DNA from: Rhizobium rhizogenes
Lineage (GTDB): Bacteria; Pseudomonadota; Alphaproteobacteria; Rhizobiales; Rhizobiaceae
Assembly (NCBI RefSeq): GCF_002005205.3
Contig: NZ_CP019702.2
Location: 1,616,001-1,680,000, forward strand
Direction of reading: 5' to 3'
DNA: 64,000 nt
Shown here piece by piece: positions 27,149-46,602 of the stretch. A program made the position numbers and the translations under genes. The stretch's first letter is position 1; every line of letters begins with the position of its first letter. Below the pieces are notes generated by a model. It saw only the letters and a list, made by a program, of their open reading frames with translations, did no database searches and was not told the DNA's origin.

Positions 27149-27382
27149 TCAATGCAGATCGGCCTGGGCGAAAGCACCGGCATTCAGCTCTACGGCTGCG
27201 GGCGGCAGGCCGTGCTGATTGATATCCTGGGCCAGCGACAACAGCGCCATTTCCAGGAAATAGGTCGACATGCCCAGTTCCATGGATTTCGAGCGCTGGC
27301 AAAGATAGGAAACCATCCTTCCAAGCGCCAGAATCTCGTCTGCATTGTCCTGTTCAAGTATTACTGTGGTAGACGCCGCCAT
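27149..27382 (-). CDS. Small hypothetical protein, 77 residues
   Basis: Starts MAASTTVILEQDNADEILAL after an AGAGGGAAG ribosome site; the frame stays open 18 codons upstream without a better start. Predicted largely helical (ILALGRMVSYLCQRSKSMELGMSTYFLEMALLSLAQDI), with an acidic N-terminus and no membrane segment. No family recognised. It lies alone between metE and the XRE regulator. Coding status is supported by the ribosome site and amphipathic helical character only. Confidence 0.6.
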   Translation of the reverse strand: MAASTTVILEQDNADEILALGRMVSYLCQRSKSMELGMSTYFLEMALLSLAQDINQHGLPPAAVELNAGAFAQADLH

Positions 27383-27476
27383 GCTTCCCTCTCGACAATC
27401 GACAGTATGAAAACGCGCTGATGCCGCGTTATTCATTTTCGACCATATCGAGCGTCACGCGAGCGTCACACCTGCG

Positions 27477-27929
27477 TTACTCGTCGTTTTTCTTTTCCGG
27501 CGCGGATGTGTTTTCCGCCGTTTCGGTTGCGGCGAGCGACGTCACGAGGGCGACGATGCTGCGGCGAACGCTTGCGCTCTTGATTCGCGAAAAGGCCTGA
27601 TTGAGCGAAAATCCTTCATTCGAAGCGACAAAGGACTGCATGGCGTTTATCGAGCCGATGGCCGGATTGTCGTTTCCGACATCGGGCGTGGCATTGGCGA
27701 AAAGCGAGCTGACGTCGACACCGAGAACCGATGCAATGGCCTGCAGACGCGATGCACCAACGCGATTGGCGCCTTTTTCGTATTTCTGGACCTGCTGAAA
27801 GGTAATGCCGAGCCGGCCGGCCAGAGCGCTCTGGCTCATGCCGAGCGACTTGCGTCGCATTCTGATCTGGGTTCCCACATGCACGTCGATCGGGCTGGGA
27901 AGTTTGGGCTGCATAATAAATTCCTCCAT
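27477..27929 (-). CDS. XRE-family transcriptional regulator
   Basis: A 150-residue protein with a Cro/C1-type helix-turn-helix at about residues 17-75 (GTQIRMRRKSLGMSQSALAG, then GITFQQVQKYEKGANRVGAS). Its C-terminal half contains FSLNQAFSRIKSASVRRSIVALVTSLAA. This type is multi-copy in Rhizobiales, and target genes are generally unknown. The inverted repeat GTTGAA/TTCAAC at 27969-27988 lies 40 bases upstream. It may start at MEEFIM or at MQPKLP five codons later. It is the next gene downstream of the PAD-like gene on the same strand, 108 bases away. Confidence 0.85.
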   Translation of the reverse strand: MEEFIMQPKLPSPIDVHVGTQIRMRRKSLGMSQSALAGRLGITFQQVQKYEKGANRVGASRLQAIASVLGVDVSSLFANATPDVGNDNPAIGSINAMQSFVASNEGFSLNQAFSRIKSASVRRSIVALVTSLAATETAENTSAPEKKNDE

Positions 27930-28037: not shown

Positions 28038-29192
28038 TTACAGTGGCGGGACACGCGCCGGAGCCCGGCGCATAACCTTTGTAGCGCAACGCAACGCCCC
28101 GTTGCGGCTTGCAAGATGGCTCCATCCGGCTACGCCAATGGGATCAAAACCGAGCCCTTTCCAGATTTTCCGGTTCTCTTCATCGAACCATTCAAGCGTC
28201 TCCCTGTCGCCGAAATGGGGCAGCCAGACGAATGGCTGTATTTGACCCGGGCGTACGACATTTTCAAGAATGACATTGTTGTAAAGTCGCGGGATGCATT
28301 TGTTGCTGTCGATGGCCGGTGAAACGGGAATGGGATTTCGCGCTATCGCGAACCCTTGCCGGACGAGCGAAAGCACCGAAGCATCGAGTTTTTGTTTGAG
28401 ATCGCTGACTACACGGGCGCTGCATCCCCCATGCGCCATGGGGTCGGCGACCAGAAGCAGCGGGCGGCCGTCCCGCCTGAGACCGGTGACGGAAACGAAC
28501 TGGTCAACATGGAAGCCGCATTGGTGCATTTTCCCGTCGGGCATGGTCGAAGGGGGTGATTTTACAGGGGAAAGGCCGGCTGGGGCGGCAGAGGCGCCCA
28601 GATCTTCCGGCCGATATCCGAAACTGTATAGCGTCCTGCCATCGAGAGCCTGTATCCTTTGTTGCTGTTGCAAATGCCCGGCGGGGCGACCACCGGTCCC
28701 GCCGCCCTGCAGGCTTGAGTGACCCACCAGTCGAAAATCCGGACCGACCAGCTGGTTGCCACCATCCAGAAGGATGTCCGAAGCGGCGGTCGCGAGCCCG
28801 AAACGATTGGCGAGTGCGTCGGCACAGGGGTTTCCCCTCGCTGAAACCAGTTCAGTCGTAGCGCCATCGCTCCCGGCCCGGACATGGAATACATCCTGTA
28901 TCCACGGATGCGCGATGTTGCCGTTTGCATCGAGGGCAAGCAGCTCAGTGGTGCAGGTGATCGCAAGCCCGCCAAGCCAGTGCCGCGCGGATGGAATGCA
29001 GGCCCGGTCGATGACGATGACGGCTATTATCTCGCGGGGCAGGGCCGAAAGCAGGTTTCCGAGGGGAATGAGCGGTGAAACGTCTTCTCTGTCGTTGCCA
29101 TCTGTAAAAAAAGCTGTCGGGAGCGCGAATGCGATTGTGTGGATCAGTGCGCCACAATCGGGAACGAGGGACGGGAACCGGGCAGCCGTCAC
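28038..29192 (-). CDS. Protein-arginine-deiminase-like pentein (predicted peptidyl-Arg to citrulline enzyme)
   Basis: I place the start at the GTG at 29192, whose GTGA overlaps the TGA stop of the tfuA gene; this gives 384 residues. Motifs match the catalytic core of PAD enzymes: WIQD (Asp100), LVGPDF (148-153), FHVDQFVSV (His228, Asp230) and RCATKVMRRAP (Cys369). They correspond to Asp350, His471, Asp473 and Cys645 of human PAD4. All four catalytic positions are kept, so an active guanidine-modifying hydrolase is likely. Small-molecule deimination is possible, but position in a YcaO-TfuA operon favours a peptide or protein substrate. No signal peptide is seen. Confidence 0.8.
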   Translation of the reverse strand: MTAARFPSLVPDCGALIHTIAFALPTAFFTDGNDREDVSPLIPLGNLLSALPREIIAVIVIDRACIPSARHWLGGLAITCTTELLALDANGNIAHPWIQDVFHVRAGSDGATTELVSARGNPCADALANRFGLATAASDILLDGGNQLVGPDFRLVGHSSLQGGGTGGRPAGHLQQQQRIQALDGRTLYSFGYRPEDLGASAAPAGLSPVKSPPSTMPDGKMHQCGFHVDQFVSVTGLRRDGRPLLLVADPMAHGGCSARVVSDLKQKLDASVLSLVRQGFAIARNPIPVSPAIDSNKCIPRLYNNVILENVVRPGQIQPFVWLPHFGDRETLEWFDEENRKIWKGLGFDPIGVAGWSHLASRNGALRCATKVMRRAPARVPPL

Positions 29193-29902
29193 GGCGTATT
29201 TTCCCCCGCCATGCGCCGCGCTGCCAATTGCTGAAAAAACACGGTGTTCTGGAATTTCCACGATGTCGGTGGCGGGCTCGGCAGGTCTCCCGTATCGAGC
29301 ATCGCCAGCAGTCTGGCTGCGTCGTTTCTTTTTAAGGAAACCGCCTCTTTCGCCAGCATATTCGCGAATTCCAAGCCAAGCCGTGCTTCGGCGGCGATGG
29401 TGCGCCATGTTCTGCGGGTGAAATGCAGCTGTCGGGCGGCGCGCAGCAGGGTGCCGTGTTCTTCCGGCGTGACTTTATCGTGGCATGCCTGCAGCGTGGC
29501 TTCGGTATCGACCAGTGCGATCGTCAGCGGGCGATAACCGAGTTCAGCCGGCGCATGGCTCACCGCCACATCCGCATCGGAAAAACGCTGCCCGTCGCGA
29601 TAGGACTCGAAGATGTCGCCGATACCGATCATGCCGAAGGCGGCGCATTCCGCCGCCCTCAGGGCGCCCATGCTGGCGGCGCCGAGAATGGTGACGCCGG
29701 ATGACAGGGCATGCAGGATTTCCTTGTGCCAGACGGCGGCGCAATCGCCATAAAGGCCGTCAATCAGGCCGATTGTTCGGGCACCCTGCTGCACCGCATC
29801 GAAAATATCGCCGCAGGCAGCCGGCCCGCGCAGATCGACTTCCGGGATTTCTTCGCCTGCGATGCCGTGGATGGAAGGACCTGCAAAAACCACGGTCGTC
29901 AT
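29189..29902 (-). CDS. tfuA: TfuA-domain protein, YcaO partner
   Basis: A 237-residue protein with the TfuA core at about residues 43-86: IGLIDGLYGDCAAVWHKEIL, then GVTILGAASMGALRAAE. TfuA proteins work beside YcaO enzymes in peptide thioamidation, where they are thought to deliver or hydrolyse the sulfur donor; the name comes from the trifolitoxin system. The start ATGA overlaps the ycaO stop by 4 bases and its own stop overlaps the PAD-like start by 4 bases, so the three proteins are translationally coupled. No Tfx-like genes other than ycaO are nearby. Confidence 0.9.
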   Translation of the reverse strand: MTTVVFAGPSIHGIAGEEIPEVDLRGPAACGDIFDAVQQGARTIGLIDGLYGDCAAVWHKEILHALSSGVTILGAASMGALRAAECAAFGMIGIGDIFESYRDGQRFSDADVAVSHAPAELGYRPLTIALVDTEATLQACHDKVTPEEHGTLLRAARQLHFTRRTWRTIAAEARLGLEFANMLAKEAVSLKRNDAARLLAMLDTGDLPSPPPTSWKFQNTVFFQQLAARRMAGENTP

Positions 29903-31203
29903 CGAAGGTCTCCGGCACTGAGGAAATGATCGAGCGTTCGTGGCGAAATATTCTGCAGGCCACCGCTGGTCGGGGTGAGGCCGCTTGCCAGAACCCGCAC
30001 GACATGGAGGCCTTCAACACCCGTTTCCAGCGTAAAGACATGAATATCGTCGATCCCCGCGTCGAAAAGGCGTTGTGCAAGCAGGCGCCAGGGCGGCAGA
30101 GTTTGATCGCCCTGTGCAAGATCAAGCCGCACCGGGGTCCGTTCCACCGGTTGCCGGCCGGACGCGGGCGCGATCAACATCTCCCGCTGGTAACGCAGCG
30201 GAGAGAGATCGTCCCTGGCGCCGCTGATATCCGTCAGCCGCGACTGGATCGCTTCGAGCAGCGCCGCAACGGCGGCGTCATAGGTTCCGGGCCGGCAGGC
30301 AGCACCCGCCGCGCTGCGGGTTGCGGGCCCGTCCTGCGCGTTGACGGAGCGGGGAAGGCTTGCGATCACCACCGGCACGCCAAGTGCATTCGTCATGTCG
30401 AAGAAGGACGGCGTCAGATCAATGTGCGAAAGCCGTTGGACAAGGCTGTCGAAGGATGCATCGACACCGGCCGGAAACGCGACCGGCTCCGGCACGATCG
30501 TTCGGGTTTCGAAGGTGTCGACGAGAAAACAGGCGTCGTTTTCGATGAGTTCGAGCAGGGCGTGGAAAACCGCATGGTCATGGTCAAACCCCGCCGCGAG
30601 ACCTTGCGAACTCATCAGGAAGGCGTGCCGGTCCCAGGGGAAATCCGTGCGGAAATCCATGCCGATAAGTTCGTAGGGCGCGAATACGTCACGCTGCTGG
30701 CGAACGGATATTCCTTTCACCCAGGCACGCTCGCGCCGCACATCGAGCCGGTCGGGATCGACACGGCCGATGGTCTCGAACGGGACGAGGGGAATGCCTT
30801 TTTCCCGCAGGTCCTGAAGGGAGCCAAAGGTGGAGAGATGTTTGCGGGTATCTTCGGCGACCGCGCCTTCTATCGCTTCCATGATCGCCGAGAGCCGGGC
30901 CTGTTCCGCAACAAGTCCCTTGCCCTGCGAAACCGAAAGCCCGCGTGAATTGGGGCGCACCGCAAACCAGACGGGTATGCCGATAATGTCGAGATCGGTC
31001 ACATCGCCGACACGGGTAATCCCGAACCGCCGCAGCAGTTCGGGATCGAAGAACGAAGCGTCTGCATGTCCTGAGGCCGCTGTCACTGATATGGGAGCGC
31101 CGCCAGCGGTCAAGGCTGCGTAACCGCGATCAGGGTGCAGTGTTGGCGTCGTCGGCAAGGATGGCGTCGAACAGTTCGCCGGTGACGGAGCCTGCCGGTC
31201 CAA
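29899..31203 (-). CDS. ycaO: YcaO-domain ATP-dependent cyclodehydratase/thioamidation enzyme
   Basis: Up to 434 residues. GITRVGDVTDLDIIGIPVWF (61-80) opens the YcaO domain. ATP/Mg-binding residues are visible: SAIMEAIE (Ser105, Glu109, Glu112), ELIEND (Glu218, Glu221) and EAIQSR (Glu317, Gln320). YcaO enzymes phosphorylate backbone amides; with TfuA they typically install thioamides. No PxPxP C-terminus of the azoline type is present. The start is uncertain: TTG at 31203 overlaps the upstream gene by 74 bases, while TTG at 31113 lies just after its stop. The core domain is complete either way. Confidence 0.9.
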   Translation of the reverse strand: MDRQAPSPANCSTPSLPTTPTLHPDRGYAALTAGGAPISVTAASGHADASFFDPELLRRFGITRVGDVTDLDIIGIPVWFAVRPNSRGLSVSQGKGLVAEQARLSAIMEAIEGAVAEDTRKHLSTFGSLQDLREKGIPLVPFETIGRVDPDRLDVRRERAWVKGISVRQQRDVFAPYELIGMDFRTDFPWDRHAFLMSSQGLAAGFDHDHAVFHALLELIENDACFLVDTFETRTIVPEPVAFPAGVDASFDSLVQRLSHIDLTPSFFDMTNALGVPVVIASLPRSVNAQDGPATRSAAGAACRPGTYDAAVAALLEAIQSRLTDISGARDDLSPLRYQREMLIAPASGRQPVERTPVRLDLAQGDQTLPPWRLLAQRLFDAGIDDIHVFTLETGVEGLHVVRVLASGLTPTSGGLQNISPRTLDHFLSAGDLR

Positions 31204-31558
31204 CCGCCTTCAGCGCCGCGCCGATCGGTGCCTGCACCATGCGGTTGAAGTCCCAGCCGGCGTCACTCACTTCGCCGATGAAGGCGAAATCGGCTTCGGA
31301 AACCACCGCTCCGCCGGAGACGAGGGCTTCGATGCCCTGGATCTGGACCTGGTCCAGCTCGGCCTCGGGCTTGCCATCCTGGCGAACGAGCATGGCTTTT
31401 GCCGCAGCCGCGACGCGTGCATAGCCATCCACGCCCGGGTGGCTGGCTTCATAGGCCGCAATCGTTTCATGCGATACGGATGCGACCCGGAGCGGCGCCG
31501 TGCGAATGAAAAGAACGCCGAAGCCCTTTTTTCCGACAATGAAGAAATGTGAGGACAT
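31130..31558 (-). CDS. Unknown 142-residue protein, candidate substrate of the YcaO/TfuA/PAD-like enzymes
   Basis: Starts MSSHFFIVGKKGFGVLFIRT, with an AGGAGA ribosome site overlapping the stop of the regulator gene. It contains no cysteine, five arginines (19, 24, 48, 59, 106), a Gly/Lys-rich N-terminus (GKKGFG), an Ala-rich helix (YARVAAAAKAML) and an acidic C-terminus (DAILADDANTAP). I recognise no family. Its place directly before ycaO is where precursor or substrate genes often lie, so it may be the modified protein or a docking factor. That role is inference; cyclisation of Cys is ruled out by composition. Confidence 0.8.
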   Translation of the reverse strand: MSSHFFIVGKKGFGVLFIRTAPLRVASVSHETIAAYEASHPGVDGYARVAAAAKAMLVRQDGKPEAELDQVQIQGIEALVSGGAVVSEADFAFIGEVSDAGWDFNRMVQAPIGAALKAVGPAGSVTGELFDAILADDANTAP

Positions 31559-31566
31559 ATTATCTC

Positions 31567-33495
31567 CTATTTGATCCCAGCTAATCGAAGTGCGTGATAG
31601 AATTTTTCATTCGCTATCGGGTCACGGTCTGGAGACAGGCTGCTGATCTCCCTCGCCGTCATACCCGGATAGTTTTCCTGAAGCCTGCCGCCGGCTTCCC
31701 GGGCGGCGGTCAAATCACCATGGAGCGCGTGGCTTGCGGTCAGCACCCGCAGGGCCGGCTCGTCATTTTCCATTCGCCCGCACAATTCCACCGCCGCGCC
31801 GTAATCCTCACGCTTGAAGGCGATGCTGGCGCCCGCCCACCAGTAGATATCGGGTGCGAGCGGATTGAGATCGATCGCCTGCTGGAACTTTCCCCAGGCG
31901 GTTTCGGCATCGCCGAAATGGGCAAGCGCATCGGCATGCTGGAGCAGGAGGTCGGCCGAGTTGGGGGCGAGCGCCTCCGCCTCGAAGAATTTTTCGGCGG
32001 ATATGTCGAAATCCCGCTGGTAAAGCGCCACCACCGCGCACATCCAGTGGCCGACGCCGAGGGCGGGGTCGATCTCCACGGAGGCGTCCGCTTCCGCCTT
32101 GGCGCGGTGCAGCAGGTGCGGATCGTTGCCGCCCAGCATCAGCCATTCCAGCTGCAGGCTCTGGGCCACCCGGGCACGGGCGACGGCCATGCTGTGATCG
32201 AGGTCGACGGCCTTGCGGAACATCGAACGGGCCCTGCGCAGGAGCGGCAGGTCGCATTTGCCGCGCAAAAGCTGCTGGCCTTCCAGCAATTGCCGGTAGG
32301 CCTCGCCGCTGTGGTTGCGGTCTGGTTCCACCTGAAGCCGCTCGATCTCGCGGGCAAGCGCCGCCGCCACCTGCTTGGAGAGCAGGCGGAAGGCGGCGTG
32401 GATGTGCCGCTCGGTGAGGATCACTTCCAGCGACCAGACGATCTCGCCGGTCTCTTCCTCTATCAGCGCCACCGACATGCGGGCGTCGTCGAAGACCGAC
32501 GACATGATCCGGTAATCGGCCCGCAGCATGGCGTAACCATCGTCTGTCCGGCTGCTGGAAAGGGCGAAGGTGCTGTGCGGCGAAAGAACGGTGAAGGTGC
32601 GGTAACGCACCAGGCTGTTGGCGACATCCTCGACAAAGGCGTGCATGACGGGTGATGCCGGCAGCCCGTCCACCCGCGCCGGAAGACCGAAGGCGACACG
32701 CGGTTTTGCCGTGGTTTTTCGCCGGCTGCCTTCGTCCGGCTCGGCGGGGGTGGTTATCGTCGAGGCGAGGCTCTGTATCCGCCGCCTCAGCGCCACGGTC
32801 TCCGGCTCCGGTGAGCCTGCTTCCTGGCGGAGCTGCTCCAGCAAAAGCTGGAACATGCCCTCGCTGGCGCTGATATTACCGACGCGCGCATAGGCGGCCA
32901 TGGCGGCGCGGTAGGTTTCCTCGCGCTCCGGCTCGATCTTGCGCGCGCATTCGGCAAGTCTTGCAATATCGTTGGAGCTGGCGCGGCCGAAACGTGTGAG
33001 TTCCTCCAGAAGCTGCGTGTAGCTTGAGAAGAACAGGTCCTTGAGGCGCCGCCGTTCAGACAGCAGCCAGAGGTAGAGGTGATCCTGCCCGGCATCCAGC
33101 CCGTCCAGCAGGTCGCCGCCGAATTCGAGCAGCGCCTGCAGCCGCCGCATCGGGTCTTCGGCTCTTGCGCCGGCAAGGAAGATCGCAAGGTCGGTCCGCT
33201 GCGCCAGCTTTCCGGCCTTGAGGTCGTTTCCTTCGGTCAGAAGAATGGCTTCGTCTTCATTGGGCAATTTCTGGAGACGCAGGATCAGCTGGCGCAAATT
33301 GCCGAGCGCCCGTTTCTGCTCGACATTTTCCCACAGGAGCGAAGCGGCGTTCTGGCGGGAAAGCGACTGGTTGGGGGCGAGAATGAGGGCGGCTATCAGG
33401 GCAAAGCCCTTTGACGGGAAAAACGCTTCCCGCACCGCGTCACAACGCGGGGTGCCAAAAAGCCGGATCGGTATCAGTTCAGCGTTCCCAGCCAC
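31567..33495 (-). CDS. SARP/BTAD-type transcriptional activator with TPR domain
   Basis: A 642-residue regulator from the GTG at 33495, which has GAGGGG six bases upstream; in-frame ATGs at 33519 and 33516 lack a ribosome site. Residues about 8-95 form an OmpR-like winged helix (IPIRLFGTPRC, then LSRQNAASLLWENVEQKRALGN). A bacterial transcriptional activator domain follows (to about 250). Helical TPR-like repeats occupy about 380-600 (AKAEADASVEIDPALGVGHW, AWGKFQQAIDLNPLAPDIYW). It is first in the operon with ycaO-tfuA-PAD and probably controls it. A phased direct repeat in the divergent promoter fits SARP binding. Confidence 0.87.
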   Translation of the reverse strand: MAGNAELIPIRLFGTPRCDAVREAFFPSKGFALIAALILAPNQSLSRQNAASLLWENVEQKRALGNLRQLILRLQKLPNEDEAILLTEGNDLKAGKLAQRTDLAIFLAGARAEDPMRRLQALLEFGGDLLDGLDAGQDHLYLWLLSERRRLKDLFFSSYTQLLEELTRFGRASSNDIARLAECARKIEPEREETYRAAMAAYARVGNISASEGMFQLLLEQLRQEAGSPEPETVALRRRIQSLASTITTPAEPDEGSRRKTTAKPRVAFGLPARVDGLPASPVMHAFVEDVANSLVRYRTFTVLSPHSTFALSSSRTDDGYAMLRADYRIMSSVFDDARMSVALIEEETGEIVWSLEVILTERHIHAAFRLLSKQVAAALAREIERLQVEPDRNHSGEAYRQLLEGQQLLRGKCDLPLLRRARSMFRKAVDLDHSMAVARARVAQSLQLEWLMLGGNDPHLLHRAKAEADASVEIDPALGVGHWMCAVVALYQRDFDISAEKFFEAEALAPNSADLLLQHADALAHFGDAETAWGKFQQAIDLNPLAPDIYWWAGASIAFKREDYGAAVELCGRMENDEPALRVLTASHALHGDLTAAREAGGRLQENYPGMTAREISSLSPDRDPIANEKFYHALRLAGIK

Positions 33496-33547
33496 TTTCG
33501 TCCCCTCATGAATCATCATCTAGCACGTGTCCGGGAAATTGAAAGTC

Positions 33548-33594
33548 ATCATAGCCTTCCATTTGACGCTGGTGTGACGCGGCATGCCTATTGT
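33548..33594. promoter_or_regulatory. Divergent promoter with 11-bp-phased direct repeat (SARP-type operator candidate)
   Basis: TGACGC occurs at 33564-33569 and 33575-33580, exactly 11 bases apart. Rightward, eight bases separate the second copy from a -10-like TATTGT (33589-33594). Leftward, the minus-strand -10-like TATGAT lies at 33553-33548. Streptomyces SARPs bind heptamer repeats 11 bp apart, about 8 bp from the -10 box, so the layout fits the adjacent BTAD regulator. Confidence 0.5.
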
Positions 33595-33690
33595 CGCAGA
33601 CAGAAGCATGAAGGGCGGGTGGAAAACAGCGGACATGCAGCGCGCAGGCATCGGGAATTTTCGAAAGTGATAGCGTTCAACGGAAGCTAC

Positions 33691-34182
33691 ATGGCGTTCG
33701 AGCCACGTATCGAACCTTACCAGCGTGCCGACGATGTCGGATATGCGGTCAGCGAGTTCATGTGGTTCAAGGGGCGTCCGTTCTATCCGATCTCGGCGCT
33801 GGTTCATGCGAAGGTTGCCCATGCCAGGTTGTCGGCGGAAAAGTGTGATGACCAGGACGAGGACAATCTGGATATTCTCTTCCGCATGCCGGTGGTGGCG
33901 GGCGGGCATTTTTTCGAAATCGTCCTGCGCTCGAACGAGGGCACCTCTTACGGTGGCTGGCTGTGGGGAGAGGAACTGGAAATCCTGAACGAATTCGTCA
34001 ACGGCTATCGCGTTCTGGCGGGTAAATTCGAGGGCAGGCTGATCCGGTTCGAATATTCCAGACGGTTTCAGCGCTACCGGACCATGGAGCCGCTTCCCGT
34101 CGAGAAATCGGTTTTCCTGATTCAGCGGGAGGCCAAGCCCTACGCTGTCAGGCGTGATTTGCCGGCAGGTCCGGCTCGGTGA
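33691..34182 (+). CDS. Hypothetical protein, divergent from the SARP-type regulator
   Basis: About 163 residues from MAFEPRIEPYQRADDVGYAV, with GGAAG four bases upstream; the GTG at 33667 is an alternative. Mixed alpha/beta and globular, rich in aromatic residues (FMWFKGRPFYPISALVHAKV; GGWLWGEELEIL), with no signal peptide or membrane helix. The frame is open from 33508 but that part overlaps the divergent promoter. No family recognised. It is the first plus-strand gene after the phased repeat, so it may belong to the same regulon. Confidence 0.65.
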   Translation: MAFEPRIEPYQRADDVGYAVSEFMWFKGRPFYPISALVHAKVAHARLSAEKCDDQDEDNLDILFRMPVVAGGHFFEIVLRSNEGTSYGGWLWGEELEILNEFVNGYRVLAGKFEGRLIRFEYSRRFQRYRTMEPLPVEKSVFLIQREAKPYAVRRDLPAGPAR

Positions 34183-43648: not shown

Positions 43649-44005
43649 TACCGTCTCCTGTCCGTTAGCGTTGGTTTCCTCACTCCTCCTGCGAGACAGC
43701 CTAACAGGGCAAAAAGCGTCCTGTTAGAGCCAGAAATTAGGGGTGCGTCTTCCAGTACGAAAGGTGCAAATTCGATATAGAAATGCACTACTCAGCTGTC
43801 GATCACCCATTTAAGCATCCGTTTTAGGTAAGCGGGCAAGGCTTCGCGTTTGCAGTCAGCGAACAGATTCTGGATCGGATAGGAAAGTAGATATTCAAAG
43901 CAAAAACTTCACGGTATTGAAGGGATTTAACATTATATCCCATGCTCTTGTGCTGTATTTTTTGATGTATATCATATTTCAGTATTTAATTCAGTTTCTA
44001 AATAT
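43649..44005. other. Intergenic region between acyltransferase and exsH-like gene
   Basis: The exsH-proximal part is the minus-strand leader of that gene. The half near 44005 turns strongly AT-rich, marking the edge of the AT-rich genes. A short coding remnant is possible at 43792-43908. No terminator or RNA gene seen. Confidence 0.5.
43792..43908 (-). pseudogene. Possible degenerate gene remnant (38 codons)
   Basis: A minus-strand frame without a start codon ends FADCKREALPAYLKRMLKWV followed by IDS and a stop. It reads like the C-terminal end of a real protein and sits where base composition changes. It is too short to identify. Confidence 0.25.
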
Positions 44006-45094
44006 TTATGCGTTAGCTATGCTTTTATTCATGCTCTTTCCCATCCGAATGAATGGTCGCTCGATGAAATGGTAAGTGATTGCGCTCAGGGCAATCGTGG
44101 AAGTAAATAAAATAGGTATGTACAAACCATTTCTTATCATTATTTGGTCGAAATTGAGAATGGAAAATATTTCCATCAATATAGGGTGGGTGATATATAG
44201 AGAATAACTTATGTATCCCATGTATATAAGAAATGGAGAGTTAAATTTGTCAAACCAAGACAGTGCTCCGATAAAGATAAATATGGCAAGGCAATGAGTG
44301 GCAATGATAGAGTTAAAGTTCTCGAATCTGACGTCATTCCCGTAAACGAAAATTACATAGTGAATATACCCCCTTAGAATTATTCCGATAATGATCGTAG
44401 TTATGACTAAAAATAACCAGATATCGAATATTCTATTAAGGTTTATTTGGTTTTTTCGGATAACAGAACCAAGAAACATAAAGCTTATAAGGATAATTTT
44501 GTCGCCGCCAGCTATCGTTTGGCCGAATATCTGCGCCATTGAAATCGCGATTGATACGCTGGCACAAAATAACGCGCCTTGACGAGCAGTTGCCAAATTA
44601 AGCGGACCGAACAACGCATATATTGCGGCAACGATCGTATAAAATATAATTTCATATGCTAAAGTCCAATAAACATCGAGAATGCGATGAGAAAGAAGTA
44701 AATCAGGTATCATTGTAATGTTTGCAAATATATCATAAATTGATACGTGGTGTCCGGCATAAAATCGTACAATTAGTGCCGCTGTGAGCGATGCCCAAAA
44801 TAATGGATAAAGCCTGAAGAGGCGACTTATTATAAATCCCCGAATCGGATTTCGTGCTGGGAAGCTAAATGGAATTACATACCCACTGATTATAAAGAAT
44901 AAAATAACACCAAAGCGGCCGAAATTAACATATTCACCTACAAGTATATTTTTTAGAAATACTTCTATGTATGAATTGGTGGGAATATTAGAATTATTTA
45001 TGAATGAGTAAGCTGCAAAGTGGGCAAGAACGACTGAAAGAGCGGCAATGCCGCGCAATTGATCTATATTTGCAATTCGTTGTCTTTTATTCAT
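44006..45094 (-). CDS. Acyltransferase 3 family membrane protein (OafA/ExoZ-like)
   Basis: A 362-residue polytopic protein with the family's N-terminal RGIAALSVVLAHF (Arg-x10-His) and IISGYVIPFSFPARN. About ten hydrophobic helices follow. These enzymes O-acetylate or O-acylate surface polysaccharides at the inner membrane. The gene is markedly AT-rich, with A/T-ending codons and many Ile/Asn/Lys, unlike the neighbouring GC-rich genes, which suggests horizontal origin together with the gene at 45244. Confidence 0.92.
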   Translation of the reverse strand: MNKRQRIANIDQLRGIAALSVVLAHFAAYSFINNSNIPTNSYIEVFLKNILVGEYVNFGRFGVILFFIISGYVIPFSFPARNPIRGFIISRLFRLYPLFWASLTAALIVRFYAGHHVSIYDIFANITMIPDLLLSHRILDVYWTLAYEIIFYTIVAAIYALFGPLNLATARQGALFCASVSIAISMAQIFGQTIAGGDKIILISFMFLGSVIRKNQINLNRIFDIWLFLVITTIIIGIILRGYIHYVIFVYGNDVRFENFNSIIATHCLAIFIFIGALSWFDKFNSPFLIYMGYISYSLYITHPILMEIFSILNFDQIMIRNGLYIPILFTSTIALSAITYHFIERPFIRMGKSMNKSIANA

Positions 45095-45243
45095 TTTAAA
45101 TACTCTTGAATTTTTTCTAAATATCTATTTTATTTATTTTGAATGTTAGTTTATAGATTTGTAGTGAATACTATTTATTTTCGATGAATTGTGGTATTAA
45201 TCTAAGTTTTTTTTTCATTTGGTAATCTAGGATTTATAGATTT

Positions 45244-46602
45244 TTAGGGAAATTTATTAAGAATTCCGGTCTTCATGACTGCGTTTTTCAAAAATGCTCT
45301 AAAATCCAGGTCGATAAAGGTATATCCGGCGGCCAGCCCAATGTGCGCCATGAAGACGGGATTGAAATTTAATTCCTCAAACTGATAGCCGATGACGACT
45401 CCAAGGGCTGAATAGGCAAAAAAGCTGATTTTTCGTTTGCGGAAAATTGTATAGAAGAGTGCAAAGGCGCTAATAAGACAGAAGCCTATACCGGATGTAT
45501 AAGCGGTCGCCAAAAAACCGTTATGAGGTGTACCGACTTTCGTCATTTTCGCTAGTTCCTGACTTCTTAAGGAATAGCCGACGCCGAATGGGTGCTCGAA
45601 CATTACCTGAAATCCACTGCTAATGGTCGACCATCGTTCTTGAAGGTTATTGCTGGTATTGCTGTCATCCAGAAAACGTTTCGAAAAAGCCTGCTCGACA
45701 AAATCAAAGGCACCTAACGGCAAAATGGCGGCGATCACGAGAGCTGATAAGACGAAGCCTAAATATGTGCTCAAGAGCATTCTGACCGAAAAGTTTCTGA
45801 CGTAAAAATATAAGCCAATAGCTAGAACAGCAAACACTCCAGATCTGTTAAGCGTTAGCGTGAAGCTTGCCAGATAAATGAGTAGAAACAAGGCGAACAG
45901 CGCGGGACGTCTGCGGGTTTCGGCAAGAAATGCAGCTGCGGCGCCCGCAAGGGCGAAGGCTGGACCAGCCATATTCCCCGCAGACCATATTCCTCCTGCT
46001 TTTTCGATGCGTAGAAGCATCGCGCTCATTTCACCGTTTGCTGCGGCTTCTAGCACAGCAGTCTCGTCGAACATAAAGGACAGGCCCAGAGGCGCTAACT
46101 GATCGTGAATGATTGTGTCTAGGAACAGGAGGGTCGTCACGGCAAGAAAGCCAGCAAAAGTACCCCAACAGAACATTTCGAGGAGGTTTTCTTTAAATAG
46201 AACGTAAGTGAAGAAGAGGAAGTAAATCATATAAAAATAGGTCATTGCGGTTGTGTAAAACTCACCGTCACCCCGGCCGTCGGCAAATAAAGTTGAGAGG
46301 GCAAAAAAGAACGTGAGCGGGGCGAGGTAAATCGCGATGATAAAAGAGGTAAGGCACCGGACGTATAGTACCGTTAGAACCGGTATCGTCATTAACACGA
46401 GCATGTCGGTTATATTGAGGAAGCGTAGCCCAACATTGCTGGTTACGATATTACATTGAATGAAGAATCCGATGAAAAAGACGAATATAGCCAAGAGAAG
46501 CGGCGGAATATTTACTGTTTTTGAGGGGTAGAATGGCATCGCGGCAACGAAACCCGGCAAAGAGGATCCTTGCGATGCCATTGTGTTGGCATTGTTGGTC
46601 AT
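45244..46602 (-). CDS. O-antigen ligase / polysaccharide polymerase-like membrane protein (Wzy type)
   Basis: A 452-residue protein with 10-12 membrane helices. A periplasmic loop near residues 310-370 contains VMFEHPFGVGYSLRSQELAKMTKVGTPHNGF, matching the Wzy_C/O-antigen ligase pattern (FGVG, then a late HNxF). It likely polymerises or ligates the repeat units of the local polysaccharide. The start MTNNANTM is preferred over the frame's upstream ATG at 46662. Composition is less GC-rich than most of the window, like the acyltransferase downstream. Confidence 0.83.
   Translation of the reverse strand: MTNNANTMASQGSSLPGFVAAMPFYPSKTVNIPPLLLAIFVFFIGFFIQCNIVTSNVGLRFLNITDMLVLMTIPVLTVLYVRCLTSFIIAIYLAPLTFFFALSTLFADGRGDGEFYTTAMTYFYMIYFLFFTYVLFKENLLEMFCWGTFAGFLAVTTLLFLDTIIHDQLAPLGLSFMFDETAVLEAAANGEMSAMLLRIEKAGGIWSAGNMAGPAFALAGAAAAFLAETRRRPALFALFLLIYLASFTLTLNRSGVFAVLAIGLYFYVRNFSVRMLLSTYLGFVLSALVIAAILPLGAFDFVEQAFSKRFLDDSNTSNNLQERWSTISSGFQVMFEHPFGVGYSLRSQELAKMTKVGTPHNGFLATAYTSGIGFCLISAFALFYTIFRKRKISFFAYSALGVVIGYQFEELNFNPVFMAHIGLAAGYTFIDLDFRAFLKNAVMKTGILNKFP

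Follow-up and report, generated by a model that had tools for sequence, protein, structure and literature searches.

Organization of the operon

We analysed a 64,000-nt window of the Rhizobium rhizogenes genome (contig NZ_CP019702.2, positions 1,616,001 to 1,680,000), within which five genes on the minus strand abut or overlap to form an operon; coordinates below are those of open reading frames (ORFs) in this window. The first gene (31567..33519) encodes a 650-aa SARP/BTAD-TPR regulator with a match to PF03704 (BTAD, E = 2.7e-18). After an 8-bp gap follows a 142-aa protein of no known family (31130..31558). The YcaO-type enzyme (29899..31203; 434 aa; PF02624, E = 3.4e-48) begins at a TTG, an uncertain start, within the 3' end of the preceding gene. 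The gene for TfuA (29189..29902; 237 aa; PF07812, E = 6.2e-41), the predicted sulfur-delivery partner of the YcaO enzyme, overlaps that for YcaO by 4 bp (ATGA), and the last gene, encoding a 384-aa deiminase-like enzyme with a GTG start (28038..29192), overlaps that for TfuA by 4 bp (GTGA). A first-pass annotation of this DNA had described the same spacing and named the regulator, YcaO and TfuA, and the ORF positions and Pfam matches bear it out, except that its start for the regulator, 33495, is a later in-frame start; the first ATG lies at 33519.

The YcaO protein scores above the cut-off for TIGR00702 as well as for PF02624, and a TfuA domain is encoded next to it. Both proteins fall short of the equivalogs for thioamidation of the McrA glycine, YcaO reaching 124 of 365 bits for TIGR03266 and TfuA 168 of 235 bits for NF033432 (E = 1.4e-49). 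Across the whole genome there is a single YcaO match and a single TfuA match. According to the published accounts, YcaO enzymes use ATP to activate a carbonyl of the peptide backbone, and TfuA is regarded as the supplier of the sulfur (PMC13174530; PMC8120280).

The last enzyme of the operon is probably a deiminase

The deiminase-like protein belongs to no Pfam family, with neither PF03068 nor PF04371 reaching the gathering score; among 20 aligned members of its family, PF04371 matched only one (E = 0.0084), which is not the window protein. The label "PAD-like" (peptidylarginine deiminase-like) given to it by the first-pass annotation thus lacks significant Pfam support. Its predicted structure, by contrast, has the GME/deiminase fold with a catalytic Asp-His-Asp-Cys set, for which D100, H228, D230 and C369 are the candidates, and assignment as a deiminase is supported by this fold and these residues. 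The same genome encodes a separate PF04371 enzyme (L101). At the position of WCRDSGP in L101, the operon enzyme reads WIQD, and so lacks the RDxGP motif of agmatine deiminases.

Comparison of the deiminase profile with solved structures returned two irrelevant hits with E-values above 1, and no relative of the enzyme was found in the phage collection. A sequence-level link between the profile and the genome's PF04371 enzyme, the only such enzyme used, was not significant (E = 0.46), with His-x-Asp and Cys in register. A distant relative with 23% identity, encoded on the Paenibacillus polymyxa plasmid pPPM1a (L110, 8746-10062), adjoins a gene for a DNA/RNA non-specific endonuclease and has no YcaO or TfuA annotated in its vicinity. 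For one of the two Paenibacillus plasmid relatives, the stretch examined contains no annotated YcaO or TfuA.

The five genes are co-conserved

We scanned the deiminase alignment against a contig collection with one genome per species (84,980 species), which yielded 31 distinct loci. The SARP regulator, the 142-aa protein, YcaO, TfuA and the deiminase are present in identical order in 31/31 of these, indicating that the five-gene grouping is not due to chance; because the deiminase served as the query, this figure is co-occurrence given the deiminase. A failure of the enzymes to occur together in other genomes had been named in the first-pass annotation as an outcome that would refute its proposal; the opposite was observed, and the co-conservation supports the coupling of a thioamidation pair with a deiminase. 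In two loci (L045 and L046), a second copy of the gene for the 142-aa protein lies between the first copy and YcaO. In four others (L049-L052, from Hyphomicrobiales, Dongia and an unassigned proteobacterial metagenome-assembled genome), the deiminase is just 33-38% identical, and the flanking genes are unlike those of the window in the three inspected gene by gene.

Within the genus, 25 genomes including that of the window divide into 13 with a deiminase beside TfuA, 10 with another YcaO-TfuA cluster, and two with no TfuA match. The operon and the other cluster type were not seen together in any of the 25, and the 12 genomes lacking a deiminase beside TfuA have no deiminase match anywhere in the genome, using a query that does match elsewhere. 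A profile of the 142-aa protein matched at least 5 of 297 genomes of the order (that of the window, G271 and three Labrys genomes), at least 6 of 297 of the family, and at least 4 of 385 of the class; each count includes the window's own genome and is a lower bound, since a limited number of candidates was scored per genome. All the positive genomes of the family and class carry the deiminase, and the three Labrys genomes, assigned to that genus by near-identical proteins, have no deiminase match. Deiminase matches occur in 5 of the 297 genomes of the order: that of the window; G271, which has the full operon; G034, whose operon encodes a diverged protein instead of the 142-aa protein; G191, with no operon genes within the 16 kb examined around the match; and G050. 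Overall, relatives of Agrobacterium from soil and plants carry what appears to be a compact gene set with which a small protein is made and a short piece of it is then modified in two unusual ways.

In G050 (L082, 666-7109), the match lies where the contig ends and covers a fragment of a deiminase-like protein; next to it are encoded a C39-peptidase ABC transporter, an HlyD protein and another ABC protein, possibly an exported peptide system with a deiminase. In another genome, G005 (L060, 5520-7446), the genes for YcaO and TfuA are interrupted, and those for the SARP regulator, the 142-aa protein, the deiminase and an XRE regulator are open; the operon there seems to be decaying, or the assembly to be in error.

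The 142-aa protein has the anatomy of a peptide precursor

Comparison of the 142-aa protein with solved structures and Pfam gave just weak, unrelated hits. An AlphaFold2 model (mean pLDDT 82, pTM 0.81) places strands at residues 3-10, 14-20, 23-29 and 91-97, and helices at residues 30-38, 45-58 and 70-82. Residues 1-100 (31259..31558) are thus predicted to form a folded domain, the leader, whose final strand immediately precedes a predicted core of six residues, GWDFNR (residues 101-106; 31241..31258, with the Arg codon at 31241-31243). Residues 112-142 and the stop codon (31130..31225) make up a follower. The topology of recognition domains for ribosomally synthesized and post-translationally modified peptides (RiPPs) is three strands followed by three helices. 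In a test for the winged-helix recognition fold, the model showed a strand-strand-strand-helix-helix-helix order and no significant structural match.

Homologues in other genomes separate the core from its surroundings. In the second precursor copy of Rhizobium sp. CSW-27 (L045) there are four units, and in R. straminoryzae (L046) five, of the pattern DIAMVGG....GWDxNR....P. Tandem Repeats Finder reported no array in L046, so the units there were taken from the protein sequence. Five tandem-core proteins (from L045 and L046, with P0147, P0153 and P0154) have 2, 4, 4, 5 and 5 units, and GWDxNR is present in 20/20 of these units (15 distinct), the units having been identified from the DIA pattern without reference to the core. 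The SARP-precursor-YcaO-TfuA order is kept in three Labrys genomes, with the leader and the C-terminal follower retained around different repeats, of AGVQSQ type in two genomes and of QQ-rich QQAQQG type in one; a Labrys gene (L079) contains arrays with an 18-bp period (Tandem Repeats Finder). Within the family, a conserved leader is therefore combined with a separable core that is variable or multiplied, as expected of a RiPP precursor, and the window copy has one core. In the Agrobacterium group (12 loci for each gene), the median ratio of nonsynonymous to synonymous substitution rates (dN/dS) is low in the precursor (0.062) and the regulator (0.074), versus 0.206 for YcaO, 0.211 for TfuA and 0.232 for the deiminase; dS is also highest in the deiminase (1.06, versus 0.51-0.73), so that recombination may explain part of the contrast. 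Against 11 more distant Rhizobiaceae loci the difference is smaller, with 0.145 in the precursor and 0.21 in both the regulator and the enzymes. The 142-aa protein, which the first-pass annotation listed as unknown without recognizing it as a candidate substrate, is likely to be the precursor and the substrate shared by the modifying enzymes.

L045 and L046 differ by one tandem unit and by sequence changes within units, and the sequence around them looks nearly identical; core number seems to change quickly.

Core arginine accompanies the deiminase

Residues D99, W102, R106 and P111 are unvarying in 33 proteins (the 31 loci plus the window). We also aligned a set of 36 proteins, from which the two tandem copies were dropped and to which four deiminase-linked proteins from G271, G460 (two) and G864 were added; the diverged G034 protein (L056), the genome copies of contigs counted elsewhere in the set (L093, L094, L095, L097 and L098), and other Agrobacterium-genus operon loci were left out. 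The invariant columns are G9, G14, P22, Y36, F91, R106 and P111. R106 is the only invariant position among the five arginines of the window protein (36/36), and it is kept even where the core W is Y, or where the preceding N is S, K, C, Y, T or I. The diverged G034 protein has Arg in the sequence VRIEPVDRF; it matches the profile by construction, having been a row of the alignment.

Arg is thus present in the core of 36/36 aligned proteins encoded with a deiminase. By contrast, 12 of 13 loci with TfuA and no deiminase have no Arg in up to 24 residues after a DFA-type motif (10/10 Agrobacterium-genus short precursors and 2/3 from Labrys; the count omits G040 (L059), a partial cluster from which no precursor was obtained). 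In Labrys clusters that lack their own TfuA as well as a deiminase, Arg is present in three of four; three of the four clusters have the TfuA of an adjacent cluster no more than about 5 kb away.

The short precursors of the deiminase-less clusters are positional equivalents only. An alignment of six of the 10 short proteins with the 142-aa precursor (hhalign) scored 13.7, which is not significant against 60 column shuffles (mean 12.3, maximum 20.5). The Agrobacterium-genus clusters (L053, L055, L057, L058 and L102-L107) have a SARP gene and mostly an XRE gene ahead of the cluster, and an ORF of ~74 aa between SARP and YcaO, with IHEG-like C-terminal motifs in most. Three Labrys loci (L078, L079 and L080) contain an additional SARP-precursor-YcaO cluster that has no TfuA of its own, in which an extra protein, FMN_bind_2 (PF04299) in L078, is encoded between the precursor and YcaO; the precursor of this cluster ends in Cys and may bear another modification.

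Genes flanking the operon

Downstream of the deiminase gene, on the same strand, a gene for an XRE-type helix-turn-helix regulator (27477..27929; PF01381, E = 5.8e-14; in 26/31 loci) is probably a member of the unit, and a small 95-aa protein (27149..27436; in 23/31 loci) is encoded at its end. A relative of the 95-aa protein stands after TfuA in one deiminase-less cluster (L058). On the plus strand, a divergent gene of uncertain start and no Pfam family (33508..34182) adjoins the regulator gene; it has tblastn matches in 27/31 loci (L022-L048) and none in loci L049-L052. On the Neorhizobium plasmid pNCHU2750b, tblastn finds counterparts of the divergent gene, all five genes of the operon, and the genes for the XRE regulator and the 95-aa protein standing in one row, with annotated acetyl-CoA carboxylase and D-psicose 3-epimerase genes on either side. 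This arrangement suggests that the operon and its flanking genes are a cassette of eight genes. Elsewhere in the window, positions 44001-46000 have a low GC content (0.387, against about 0.60) and by eye encode an acyltransferase-like protein and a multi-pass membrane protein; this stretch lies near a glycosidase-looking protein and possibly contains polysaccharide genes.

A proposed pathway to a doubly modified peptide

We propose, with a probability of roughly two in three, that the operon directs the synthesis of a ribosomal peptide carrying two modifications, with the 142-aa protein as its precursor. The sequences and models show the gene order, the co-conservation, the precursor anatomy with its multiplied and swapped cores, and the fold and catalytic residues of the deiminase; the role of the regulator, both modifications, their sites and their order are inferred. 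The SARP regulator would turn the unit on, giving a protein in which the GWDFNR core lies between the predicted folded N-terminal leader and the C-terminal follower. YcaO, activating a carbonyl with ATP, and TfuA, delivering sulfur, would then swap one backbone oxygen of the core for sulfur, most likely at the residue before the Arg, N105, and the deiminase-like enzyme would turn R106 into citrulline. The assignment of the thioamide to N105 and of citrulline to R106 is by analogy with the thioamidated Asn next to homocitrulline made by the std cluster and with the thioamide next to Arg in thiovarsolins (both described below). Variation of the residue before Arg would be tolerable if the change is on the backbone. 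More tentatively, and at somewhat less than even odds, the operon may define a new alphaproteobacterial peptide class, with an adjacent thioamidated Asn and citrulline in GWDFNR, a folded-leader precursor that swaps and multiplies its cores under SARP-YcaO-TfuA, and the deiminase as lineage-specific tailoring.

Several points weigh against the doubly modified peptide. The loci compared for core Arg are not independent and the homology of the short precursors is unshown, so that the association of Arg with the deiminase is support and not proof. The five tandem-core proteins are close kin, and their units are likewise not independent, which lowers the weight of the 20/20 count. The predicted fold of the deiminase is about equally close to peptidyl-Arg and agmatine deiminases.

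It is possible, but unlikely, that YcaO-TfuA thioamidates the precursor while the deiminase acts elsewhere, on agmatine, free arginine or another peptide, with R106 serving as a recognition residue for YcaO. The similarity of the fold to agmatine deiminases would allow this. The genome nonetheless has its separate PF04371 enzyme, the operon deiminase is joined to TfuA by a 4-bp translational overlap, the two co-occur in 31/31 loci, and 12/13 deiminase-less YcaO-TfuA loci have no Arg in the putative core, all of which speak against this reading.

Somewhat less probable still is that the 142-aa protein stays uncut after modification by YcaO-TfuA, and possibly by the deiminase, and works intact like McrA or the ribosomal protein uL16. 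Consistent with this, the operon encodes no recognised protease or exporter (Pfam on the operon proteins, and the annotated Neorhizobium unit), the protein is predicted to be folded along most of its length, its dN/dS is about as low as that of the regulator, and the follower is conserved too. A peptide precursor accounts better for the tandem multiplication of the core and for its replacement by unrelated repeats in Labrys, and the thiovarsolin cluster is described as likewise lacking a specific protease (PMC6511847).

Least of all do we favour the 142-aa protein as an accessory or recognition protein with the real precursor elsewhere, a very improbable arrangement despite a predicted strand/helix order that resembles RiPP recognition domain topology (with no significant structural match), given the tandem GWDxNR units and swapped repeats in homologues and the abutting or overlapping genes, which leave no room for a further ORF in the operon, although distant small ORFs were not searched systematically.

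Comparison with known systems

The operon would be a YcaO-TfuA peptide system with a precursor type of its own and a deiminase. The citrulassins are lasso peptides and are not known to involve YcaO or TfuA. They are alike in that a bacterial PAD makes citrulline in a RiPP (PMC12971885). The agmatine deiminases and the Porphyromonas PAD belong to PF04371, whereas the window enzyme has neither a Pfam match nor the WCRDSGP sequence of the genome's own PF04371 enzyme.

A 2021 survey counted the YcaO-TfuA clusters of Rhizobium and Agrobacterium, giving more than 500 TfuA-related clusters in Rhizobium, with Agrobacterium among the dominant groups; the thioamidated RiPPs then known from YcaO-TfuA all came from Actinobacteria (PMC8120280). 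Its main text, apart from the supplements that show architectures, contains neither "arginine" nor "deiminase". No described system with a YcaO-TfuA pair and a deiminase was found in the literature searched, in part by titles and the beginnings of abstracts (subscription papers, most preprints and supplements lay outside the search), in agreement with the first-pass annotation. The one paper found to name these enzymes together is PMC13174530; it and two genome-mining reviews are also where TfuA appears alongside citrulline. Within that literature, the operon would be the first case of YcaO-TfuA thioamidation combined with arginine deimination.

The thiovarsolin cluster of Streptomyces varsoviensis resembles the operon in having YcaO and TfuA, a precursor family that ranges from non-repeating to five repeats, a thioamide next to Arg, and no specific protease; in thiovarsolins A and B, the repeated core is APR and its thioamide links Pro to Arg (PMC6511847). 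It differs in that core, which is APR and not GWDxNR, and in its genes for heme-oxygenase-like, ATP-grasp, amidinotransferase and MFS proteins; no gene for the first three was found in the operon (Pfam on the operon proteins, and the annotated Neorhizobium unit), and neither "SARP" nor "deiminase" is present in the accessible text of that paper.

The closest chemical parallel is the std cluster of Streptomyces thermodiastaticus, described in a preprint, in which YcaO-TfuA thioamidates the Asn of SNKEWQE and the side chain of the Lys that follows acquires a ureido group (PMC13174530). There, a carbamoyltransferase converts Lys to homocitrulline, which an MNIO enzyme then hydroxylates, and according to its authors the cluster encodes no peptidylarginine deiminase (PMC13174530). 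The R. rhizogenes operon points to a probable substrate and modification site, along with a second enzyme, and hence allows a concrete prediction of two mass shifts; its product would parallel the thioamidated Asn and homocitrulline of std, reached by different enzymes.

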